This document shows, piece by piece, positions 48,069 through 62,164 of a stretch of 64,000 nucleotides of DNA. The translations under genes and the position numbers were made by a program. Under the pieces are notes generated by a model. It was given only the letters and a program-made list of their open reading frames with translations, made no database searches and was not told the origin of the DNA. Source of the stretch: an uncultured Paracoccaceae bacterium (GTDB lineage: Bacteria; Pseudomonadota; Alphaproteobacteria; Rhodobacterales; Rhodobacteraceae); NCBI GenBank assembly GCA_947503765.1, contig CANNFA010000006.1:62001-126000 (forward strand). The letters run 5' to 3'. How positions within the stretch are numbered: the stretch's first letter is position 1; every line of letters begins with the position of its first letter.

Positions 48069-48083
48069 TGTAACTTAATTACA
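48069..48083. promoter_or_regulatory. Operator A, TGTAA-N5-TTACA
   Basis: TGTAACTTAATTACA, perfect 5-bp arms, 40 nt upstream of the monooxygenase start. The pattern resembles RpiR-family (HexR-like) sites. The regulator at 61-62 kb is the obvious candidate. Confidence 0.65.
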
Positions 48084-48143
48084 AAAATATTCCAGCCGCT
48101 TTTTCCTGGCAATTTCCCGGTGATAAAGGGTTCAAGCCATACC

Positions 48144-48169
48144 TTGACAGACCTGTAAGCGAGTTACAG
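48144..48169 (+). promoter_or_regulatory. Promoter -35 box with operator B
   Basis: TTGACA (48144-48149) is followed 4 nt later by a second operator whose perfect 6-5-6 palindrome is CTGTAAGCGAGTTACAG (48153-48169). The operator fills the spacer and -10 region, so bound protein should block transcription of the ABC operon starting at 48217. The same TTGACA-to-TGTAA spacing recurs at operator C. Confidence 0.65.
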
Positions 48170-48216
48170 AGTTGAGGGACGAGTCGCGGCGAAAGCGGCT
48201 GTGCAGGGGGGGATGC

Positions 48217-49029
48217 ATGGCGACCAACACATCGGGGCAGGCAAAGCTGGCGATCCGAAATGCCGGCAAACGCTATGGTGCGGTCGTTGCGCTGGAAGGC
48301 TGCGCGCTGGAGGTGGAGGCGAACACCATCGTGTCCATCGTCGGGCCGTCGGGCTGCGGCAAGACCACGCTTCTGTGGTCGATGTCGGGCCTGCACGCCC
48401 TGTCCGAAGGCGAAATCCTGCTGGACGGCACCCCCATCGTCAAACCGCGCCCCGAGATCGGGCTGGTCTTCCAGGAGGCCAACCTGCTGCCCTGGCGCAA
48501 CCTGCTGGGCAACATCCTGTTCCCGTTCGAGGTCAAGGGCCAGAAACCCGACCGCGCCTGGATCGACCACCTGCTGGAGCGGGTGAACCTCAAGGGTTTC
48601 GAAAAGGCGTTCCCGAACGAGCTGTCGGGCGGGATGCAGCAGCGCGCGTCCATCGTGCGGGCGCTGTCGCTGCGCCCCTCGGTTCTGCTGATGGACGAGC
48701 CGTTCGGCGCGCTCGACGCCTTCACCCGCGAAGAGATGAACCAGCTGGTCGAGGAAATCTGGCTGGAGACCCAGACAACCATCGTCTTCATCACCCATTC
48801 CATCGAAGAGGCGCTGTTCCTGTCCGACAAGGTCGTCGTGCTGACACCGCGTCCGGGGCGGGTGCTGAACGTCTATGACGTGCCGTTCGCGCGGCCGCGC
48901 ACGATGGAGGTGATGGCGGGCAAGGATGCGTTCGACCTGCACCACCGGATCAAGGCGGACATCTACGGCCAGCAGCGCAGCGGCGGCGGCGCGGCGGCAG
49001 AGGCAAGCGGGGCGGCGGCAGCGGAATGA
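48217..49029 (+). CDS. ABC transporter ATP-binding protein (SsuB/TauB-like)
   Basis: 270-aa ATPase. Walker A GPSGCGKTTLLW, Q-loop VFQEANLLPWRNLLGN, signature LSGGMQQRASIVRAL, Walker B VLLMDEPFGALDAFTRE and switch His VFITHSIEEALF are intact. The C-terminus is low-complexity (GGGAAAEASGAAAAE). The start at 48217 has GGGGGG upstream; the ORF track adds 15 codons that contain operator-proximal sequence. First gene of the second NMT1-type importer; its stop overlaps the permease start (ATGA). Confidence 0.93.
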   Translation: MATNTSGQAKLAIRNAGKRYGAVVALEGCALEVEANTIVSIVGPSGCGKTTLLWSMSGLHALSEGEILLDGTPIVKPRPEIGLVFQEANLLPWRNLLGNILFPFEVKGQKPDRAWIDHLLERVNLKGFEKAFPNELSGGMQQRASIVRALSLRPSVLLMDEPFGALDAFTREEMNQLVEEIWLETQTTIVFITHSIEEALFLSDKVVVLTPRPGRVLNVYDVPFARPRTMEVMAGKDAFDLHHRIKADIYGQQRSGGGAAAEASGAAAAE

Positions 49030-49856
49030 CGGAGACGGCAATGAGCGACGAGGGCGGAGTCGGCGGCAGGGTCGGCAAGGGGCTGCAATCGCTGTCCACG
49101 TTCGGCAGCGGCACGACGCGGCTGGAAATCGCCGCGATCATCGCCACCGCGGTGATCGTGATCGGCGGGCTGGAGGCGGCGCTGCGCTGGTTCGAGGTAC
49201 CGCATTACATCCTGCCGCCGCCCTCGGCCATCGCGGTGGCGCTGGTCGGGGATTTCCCGCTGATCCTGCCGCATCTGGGCCATACGCTGGTGGTGCTGCT
49301 GTCGGGCTTTGCCATCGGCGCGGGGATCGGCATCTTTCTGGCCGCGATCATCACGCAGTTTCCCTTCGCGGAAAAGATCATCGCGCCCTATATCCTGATC
49401 CTCGTGACCACGCCGATGCTGGCGCTGGTGCCGCTGCTGATCCTGCGCTTCGGCTTCGGCTACGAGCCGCGGATCATCGCGGTGGCGCTGGCAAGCGGGC
49501 CGATGGTGATGATCAACTCGGCCACCGGCTTTCGCCGGGTCGATGCCAACAAGATCGCGCTGGCGCGGTCCTACGGCGCGTCGGTGCTGCAGATCTTCTG
49601 GAAGATCCGCGCGCCGATGGCGCTGCCGATGATCCTGGTCGGGCTGATGATCGGCGCGATCTTCGGGCTGCTGACGGCGGTGGGCGCGGAAATGGTCGGC
49701 GGCGGGTTCGGCCTCGGCAACCGGCTGACCACCTATTCGTCGATGATCCAGATGCCGCAATTCTTCGGGGTCGTGCTGATCCTGTCGTTCCTGGGCATCC
49801 TGATCTACGTGATCTTTTTCCTGATCGGCAAGAAATGGGCAAGCTGGGAGACCTGA
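49026..49856 (+). CDS. ABC transporter permease (SsuC/TauC-type)
   Basis: 276-aa inner-membrane permease with about six helices and the EAA loop IALARSYGASVLQIFWKIRAPMALPMILVGL. HYILPPPSAIAVALVGDF is the typical periplasmic entry. The ATG at 49026 overlaps the ATPase stop; an alternative ATG at 49041 with GGAG upstream is also possible. It imports the ligand bound by the next gene product. Confidence 0.93.
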   Translation: MTETAMSDEGGVGGRVGKGLQSLSTFGSGTTRLEIAAIIATAVIVIGGLEAALRWFEVPHYILPPPSAIAVALVGDFPLILPHLGHTLVVLLSGFAIGAGIGIFLAAIITQFPFAEKIIAPYILILVTTPMLALVPLLILRFGFGYEPRIIAVALASGPMVMINSATGFRRVDANKIALARSYGASVLQIFWKIRAPMALPMILVGLMIGAIFGLLTAVGAEMVGGGFGLGNRLTTYSSMIQMPQFFGVVLILSFLGILIYVIFFLIGKKWASWET

Positions 49857-49915
49857 GGCGCCGGGTCCGGCGCGGCAATCGAATGAACGGCGCAACAAAA
49901 CTGGGAGGAACAGAA

Positions 49916-61048: not shown

Positions 61049-61052
61049 CGGT

Positions 61053-62009
61053 TCAGTCGCCCAGCGGCTCCAGCGCGTTGCCGGATCGGTGGGTCAGCGC
61101 GGTATAGCGGATGCGCCGCAGGCTTTCGCGGGCGCGCGGCCCCAGCGTATAGCCGGTGGCCGCCGACAGCAGGTCGACCACCGCAAGATAGGCAAAGCGC
61201 ACCGAGGTCGGGGTCAGCGTGTCCTGCGTTTCCTGCACCGTGACGCAAAGCGGGTGGTGCACCGCATCCGCCAGCGGGCTGGCCAGCGCGGTGATCGCGA
61301 TGGTGGTCGCGCCGTAGCCGCGCGCGAGGTTCACCGCCTCGATCAGCTCGGCCGTGCGGCCCGACGCCGATACGGCAAGCACCACGTCCTCGGGCCCCAG
61401 CGTCGCGGCGGTCATGCGCATGAAATACGCCTCGGGGCAGCAGGCCACGTTCACCCCGTAGCGGAACAGCCGGTACTGCGCCTCTTCGGCGAGGATCGAC
61501 GCGCTGCCGCCAAGCCCGAAGGTGACCACCTGCCGCGCGCCTGCAACCGCTTCGGCGGCGGCCTGCACGGCGGCGGGGGAAAGCTGGCGCTCGACCTCGC
61601 GGATCGCGCCGCGCGCATCGGCGAGGATCGGCGACCAGTAGGCGGGCGCATGGGCGTCCGGCGGCGCGGCCGGCGCGTCGGCGTTCAGGTACAGCTCTCC
61701 GACCACCAGGCTTTGGGCGAGGCGCAGCTTGAAATCGCGCACGCCCAGACAGCCGATGGCGCGGCAGAACCGCGTGACGCTGGGCTCGCTGACGCCCGCG
61801 CGCAGGGCGAGGCAGGCGATGCTTTCCTCGACGGCGCGGCGCACATCCGCGAGCACGGCCGCGCCGACCTTGCGTTCGGCGGGCGACAGCGTGTCGAGCC
61901 GGTCCTTGATCCGGCCCAGAACGTCCGGCACCTGGCCCGGACGCGCGGGCGCAGTGTCTGGCGGCACGTCCGGCGCCGAGAGGCCGGGATCCGGTGGAGT
62001 GGCTTCCAT
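61053..62009 (-). CDS. RpiR/MurR-family transcriptional regulator
   Basis: 318-aa regulator. The N-terminal HTH_6 domain ([46 protein letters not shown]) is followed by a SIS sugar-phosphate-binding domain ([29 protein letters not shown] ... [32 protein letters not shown]). Such proteins respond to phosphosugars. The ATG at 62009 has AGGAGAG upstream; the ORF track starts 8 codons earlier. Operator C lies 141 nt upstream and two further copies lie at 48 kb, making it the likely controller of this catabolic region. The Pro/Ala-rich N-terminal extension (about 35 residues) is unusual. Confidence 0.94.
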   Translation of the reverse strand: [318 protein letters not shown]

Positions 62010-62063
62010 GCGGCTCTCCTGATTGTGCTGCAATGGTCGCCAAGCTGCGGGGTTTGGTCAAGT

Positions 62064-62075
62064 ATCTTGCAAGAT
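62064..62075. promoter_or_regulatory. Perfect 12-bp palindrome in the AT-rich intergenic region
   Basis: ATCTTGCAAGAT lies 55 nt upstream of the RpiR start, in a conspicuously AT-rich segment (62060-62130). It may be a second regulator site for the rpiR promoter. Nothing further can be said. Confidence 0.35.
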
Positions 62076-62139
62076 CACATAACGAACAAATCCGCAAAAT
62101 ACTGAAAATATGTGAAAAAATTTTGCGTGCCCGAATCTC

Positions 62140-62164
62140 TTGACAGGTTTGTAACTGAATTACA
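62140..62164 (+). promoter_or_regulatory. Promoter -35 box with operator C, TGTAA-N5-TTACA
   Basis: TTGACA (62140-62145), 4 nt, then TGTAACTGAATTACA (62150-62164). The geometry is identical to operator B at 48 kb. It precedes the SDR gene at 62273 (about 100-nt leader) and is divergent from the RpiR gene. Confidence 0.65.

Follow-up and report, generated by a model that had tools for sequence, protein, structure and literature searches.

Operator sites in the window

The locus analysed here raises the question of whether genes lying 14 kb apart are controlled by a single regulator. In a stretch of 64,000 nucleotides (the window), the initial annotation had placed exact copies of the palindrome TGTAA-N5-TTACA at positions 48069, 48154 and 62150 (sites A, B and C), and had proposed that one phosphosugar-sensing RpiR-type repressor controls a monooxygenase, an NMT1-type importer and an SDR/peptide-ABC operon through them. 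Our motif scan returned the same three positions and no fourth exact copy in the window. When compared with the called genes, all three sites were intergenic, A and B being located between the gene of the FMO-type monooxygenase and the NMT1-type ABC operon, and C between the RpiR gene (start codon TTG at 62033 or, more likely, ATG at 62009) and the SDR/peptide-ABC operon (Table 1).

Table 1. Positions of the operators, the regulator gene and the cluster genes (window coordinates, except the last row, which gives loci of relatives; L and G numbers denote loci and genomes of the comparison)
Feature	Position	Strand	Remarks
FMO-type flavin monooxygenase	46233-48029	-	predicted target via A
Operator A	48069-48083		TGTAACTTAATTACA; faces the FMO gene, whose start codon (- strand) is 40 bp off
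Promoter-operator B	48144-48172	+	TTGACA 48144-48149; operator TGTAAGCGAGTTACA 48154-48168; -10-like CAGAGT 48167-48172
NMT1-type ABC importer	48208-51064	+	predicted target via B; ATPase 48208-49029, permease 49026-49856, binding protein 49916-51064
Remainder of the conserved B operon	51257-56105	+	Gfo/Idh/MocA oxidoreductase, amidase, amidohydrolase/deacetylase, TIM-barrel protein
Ribose-type ABC importer and SDR	56197-59886	+	ATPase, binding protein, permease; SDR
DgaE/SelA-like PLP enzyme	59888-61048	+	last gene of the operon
RpiR-family regulator	61053-62033	-	HTH_6 + SIS; HexR/RccR-like recognition helix
Promoter-operator C	62140-62168	+	TTGACA 62140-62145; operator TGTAACTGAATTACA 62150-62164; -10-like CAGACT 62163-62168
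SDR and peptide-type ABC binding protein	62273-64000	+	predicted target via C; SDR 62273-63049, binding protein from 63080
Second amidohydrolase (relatives)	L006:8432-9556, L007:8531-9640, L008:8583-9692, L010:6275-7393, L056:11045-12169		

The genome-wide scan that had been suggested as a check found the exact motif at these three places only, all in this cluster, with no further copy in the 3,981,048 bases (30 contigs) of the assembly and no match to a reversed control pattern in the whole assembly. Allowing one mismatch added only three more copies in the genome, none of them at this cluster. Moreover, shuffles of the window yielded 1.53 matches even when up to two mismatches were allowed, which places the exact triple far beyond chance.

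Promoter architecture

A TTGACA box lies exactly 4 nt ahead of both B and C, as the initial annotation had it, and the composite TTGACA-N4-operator with fewer than two mismatches was present at B and C only in the whole genome. In an alignment of 21 B- and C-type sites, TTGACA was perfect in 21/21 promoters with the operator starting exactly 4 nt later, the -10 element read CANANT and began with the final two operator bases, and the spacer was 17 nt in every case. Information content reached or approached 2 bits per position in the half-sites and the -35 box, and most flanking positions carried 0-0.3 bits. The operator fills the spacer between -35 and -10, the position expected of a repressor that would exclude RNA polymerase. 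Operator A overlaps a -10-like CAGACT on the - strand, where the -35 is weak.

The distance between A and B was 81-87 bp in 9 of 11 cases (the window and eight relatives). The exceptions were 99 bp in L058 and 1142 bp in L005 (Marivita), in which an IS1595-like transposase gene (L005:11645-12634) is located between A and B and both operators are intact. DNA looping between A and B as a requirement was rejected on these two spacings.

The RpiR-family regulator

The protein encoded beside site C has an N-terminal HTH_6 domain (PF01418, 57.2 bits against a cut-off of 28.3) and a C-terminal SIS domain (PF01380, 66.5 bits against 25), which together place it in the RpiR/MurR family. The genome holds just two HTH_6 proteins above the cut-off; the regulator scores 60 bits and the second protein 29 bits. 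Its highest-scoring NCBIfam model was HexR (NF008451) at 207.3 bits, which is under the cut-off of 296, and an assignment as HexR proper was therefore rejected; the AlsR and MurR models gave 102 and 59 bits. The closest solved structure was the protein of 8ju9 and 8k3b (3.5e-42), which we take as RccR because its residues line up with the numbering of the RccR-KDPG paper (PMC10810197).

In RccR, the KDPG phosphate is bound by four serines, and the rest of the molecule by two histidines together with other residues (PMC10810197). The phosphate contacts S139, S183, S185 and S188 align with S, S, S and T in the regulator and R152 is kept, while the pocket residues H148 and H164 are both tyrosines. 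Since E. coli HexR likewise differs at the two histidine positions, this replacement argues against RccR-like recognition only. The kept phosphate residues, taken with the two tyrosines, suggest a phosphorylated ligand other than KDPG.

In our alignment, the recognition region proved close to those of E. coli HexR and RccR, with few differences. The initial annotation had likened the operators to HexR palindromes, and this likeness held: the predicted motif of Vibrio HexR, TGTAATTAAATTACA (PMC11906056), and the 15-bp TGTAGT/ACTACA site bound by RccR (PMC5489143) have the same 15-bp frame, which is not universal among HexR proteins, as Pseudomonas HexR has been described with TTGT-N7-8-ACAA. 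The regulator thus shares with HexR of the Gammaproteobacteria (YebK/HexR in E. coli) the HTH_6 and SIS domains, a very similar recognition helix and the operator type TGTAA-N5-TTACA, assigned here by co-occurrence, but its score lies below the family cut-off and its ligand-pocket residues differ. The HexR regulon described elsewhere comprises central carbohydrate genes (zwf, edd, gap and others), whereas the exact sites gave no sign of such a regulon here, all three of the genome lying at one catabolic cluster. RccR of Pseudomonas (8ju9, 8k3b) is alike in the 15-bp palindrome frame and the phosphate residues and unlike in its two pocket histidines; no 28-bp site type was seen here, and the targets in the window are transport and catabolic genes, whereas RccR targets the glyoxylate shunt. 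MurR, NanR and AlsR are local repressors with a SIS-domain sensor that lie next to the catabolic cluster they control, as proposed for the regulator here, but similarity to them is lower and their targets are others.

Conservation and co-occurrence with the regulator

Searching a genome collection with the regulator gave 8 loci whose protein is 70-88% identical to it and a further 28 in the range of 36-39%. All eight near loci carried 1-3 operators, and none was present in the 28 distant loci, whose recognition helix differs (VSPPTVTRFCRRLGC..). Genomes of the family added 7 genomes (8 loci) with orthologues at 54-73% identity. Both expectations, conservation of the motif ahead of orthologous genes and scarcity at unrelated loci, were borne out: the 16 orthologue loci (54-88% identity, 275 kb) contained 27 operators at up to one mismatch, and the control loci (722 kb), which include the 28 distant RpiR-homologue loci and loci of Gfo/Idh orthologues without such a regulator, contained none. 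Among these controls, L100-L102, which have Gfo/Idh orthologues beside other transporters and lack the regulator, were without any operator. At the margins of the 16 loci, L057 had no site at up to one mismatch and two sites, 85 bp from each other, at two mismatches, and the second site of L060 was also at two mismatches.

Of the 397 genomes of the family, 11 have the regulator; 10 of these carried the composite TTGACA-N4-TGTAA-N5-TTACA with up to one mismatch, as did 3 of the remaining 386 (Fisher p 1.3e-16, a value that overstates the independence of related species). The exact composite occurred at 8 places in 5 genomes, every one at this cluster. A refined composite was found at 14 places in 10 genomes, all among the 11 with the regulator; these very genomes had served in part to derive it, and the earlier pattern is preferred as evidence. 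The bare 15-bp motif was rejected as a marker of the regulator: its exact form, though rare in the family, occurs in 86/397 genomes and in only 6 of the 11 that have the regulator (p 0.016), too weak an association, and the composite with the promoter was required.

One orthologue with operators (L007, 77% identity) comes from a record under the title Granulosicoccus, a gammaproteobacterium. This would indicate that the locus passed from one class to another or that a metagenome contig was assigned wrongly.

Regulator and cluster halves in relatives

The two halves of the cluster, the NMT1 half and the peptide-ABC half, were found joined in some relatives and separate in others. In type 1 loci (the window, L004, L006 and L009), the regulator gene is beside C, the NMT1 operon ends next to the regulator, and the A/B pair lies at the far end from it. 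L008, L010, L054 and L056 have the peptide-ABC half without the NMT1 half on the stretch compared and have site C only; in these stand-alone clusters the regulator gene adjoins site C. Type 2 loci (L055, L057-L061) have no peptide-ABC half on the stretch compared, and there the regulator gene directly adjoins A/B, divergent from the NMT1 operon, and site A faces the regulator gene rather than the FMO gene. In L004-L006 and L009 the FMO gene is kept next to A; in L055 and L059-L061 it adjoins the regulator gene. L005 has the regulator without an adjoining site, and the stretch of its contig that was compared lacks the peptide-ABC half. Genome G153, of the same genus, has one locus of each type at separate places.

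As to the promoter of the regulator itself, a site lies just upstream of the regulator in the type 2 loci L055, L059 and L061, while site C of the window is about 140 bp upstream of it and points towards the SDR promoter. The strongest argument that the regulator would control both halves is that it accompanies each half separately, always with operators.

Proposed regulation and effector

The proposed link of monooxygenase, NMT1-type importer and SDR/peptide-ABC operon through one RpiR-type repressor is supported by conservation of the motif, by its scarcity at unrelated loci and by co-occurrence with the regulator, and a single regulator very probably controls these genes 14 kb apart. We consider it highly probable, judging from the sequence comparisons, that the RpiR gene at 61-62 kb encodes a local HexR-like repressor acting on A, B and C, which is the best explanation of the data. 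The protein would bind TGTAA-N5-TTACA as a dimer and would obstruct RNA polymerase from the 17-nt spacer of B and C. Site A overlaps the putative divergent FMO promoter about eight DNA turns from B, and the two sites may cooperate. A metabolite of the imported substrate, probably bearing a phosphate, would bind the SIS domain, upon which the regulator would leave the DNA and both halves of the catabolic and import cluster would be switched on.

Other explanations of the same sites were weighed against this local repressor. That the regulator binds these sites but acts as an activator, or in both ways, at the promoters seems improbable, because all 21 promoters have the operator inside a standard 17-nt spacer behind a perfect TTGACA. 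Activators usually sit upstream of the promoter, and those of MerR type that act from the spacer depend on one of excess length. Activation is nevertheless known in the RpiR family for GlaR (PMC6528599), and the affinity of RccR shifts in opposite directions with KDPG (PMC5489143). A transcription factor other than the RpiR protein as the one that binds the sites is still less probable. In its favour are isolated exact motifs in some genomes without the regulator, such as G147, which has neither regulator nor cluster and carries two exact TGTAACTCAGTTACA copies (L062:1269 and L063:9827), but the conserved neighbourhoods showed no second regulator gene that recurs, the composite follows the RpiR gene almost perfectly and moves with it between the cluster halves, and the sites and the helix match the motif frame and helix of HexR and RccR.

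We give hardly any weight to the view that the palindromes arose by chance or were kept merely through close DNA kinship. In the nearest relatives, L004 and L011, part of the promoter region is indeed conserved as a whole; across the alignment, however, the flanks are close to random against nearly invariant half-sites and -35 boxes, both operators survive the insertion in L005, and 3.98 Mb hold one exact triple. A chance origin was rejected by the genome-wide counts, the control loci and the family-wide scan.

KDPG made through the DgaE-like enzyme was an attractive effector, since D-glucosaminate-6-phosphate ammonia lyase yields a 2-keto-3-deoxy-sugar phosphate. This candidate was rejected: the match of the enzyme is weak (120 bits against a cut-off of 600) and the RccR histidines are not kept, and it is further disfavoured by type 2 clusters, which are without the DgaE-like gene on the stretches compared. 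A sugar kinase was not seen among the genes of the cluster, and a phosphorylated effector therefore lacks an explanation. We put forward tentatively, as something a little short of an even chance, that a HexR-type DNA-reading head is combined with an altered SIS pocket that senses a phosphorylated metabolite other than KDPG, from an undescribed pathway of import and catabolism (NMT1-type and peptide-type importers, FMO, Gfo/Idh, amidase, deacetylase and glycosidase-like barrel), with promoter-operator cassettes and a regulator that is re-linked as the pathway halves join or separate.

The type of regulator, the operator frame and the placement of the repressor are already known. Our literature search found no described HexR-type regulon in Rhodobacteraceae and relatives and nothing pertinent on this gene cluster, so that this regulon, its taxon and its targets are undescribed as far as the literature searched shows. 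What began as a motif seen by eye is now a regulon with good support, for which regulator, operator and promoter geometry are defined. One predicted signal ties together two importers and several enzymes, and the ligand of the SIS domain would point to their pathway. Moreover, the cluster offers a clean natural case in which a regulator stays with its operators while the target modules fuse and split.

Genes of the cluster

The enzymes behind the operators (oxidoreductases, amidase, deacetylase, the barrel and, in some loci, the DgaE-like protein) fit the breakdown of amide- or amino-sugar-like compounds. The deacetylase-family amidohydrolase of the B operon scored above its NCBIfam cut-off. 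The protein at 54930-56105 had no Pfam or NCBIfam match and is 64-81% identical among relatives; its predicted structure is a TIM barrel of fair confidence (pLDDT 75) with PgaB and GH42 glycosidases as top matches (TM about 0.5), and the model allows it to be called a glycosidase-like barrel and no more. The ribose-type ABC importer and SDR at 56197-59886 are absent at that place in the orthologous loci examined, and they look acquired, inserted under the promoter of the operon.

Behind site C, the permeases and ATPases of the peptide-type ABC importer run on past the end of the window. In several relatives the first gene behind site C encodes a second deacetylase-family amidohydrolase, 57-60% identical to that of the window (Table 1), which is missing at this position in the window. 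A related cluster without regulator or operators was observed at L102:5086-6993, where Gfo/Idh, deacetylase and barrel genes are located near a CUT1-type sugar importer and, as judged by eye, a beta-L-arabinofuranosidase-like protein, a neighbourhood hinting at a pathway that handles glycosides.
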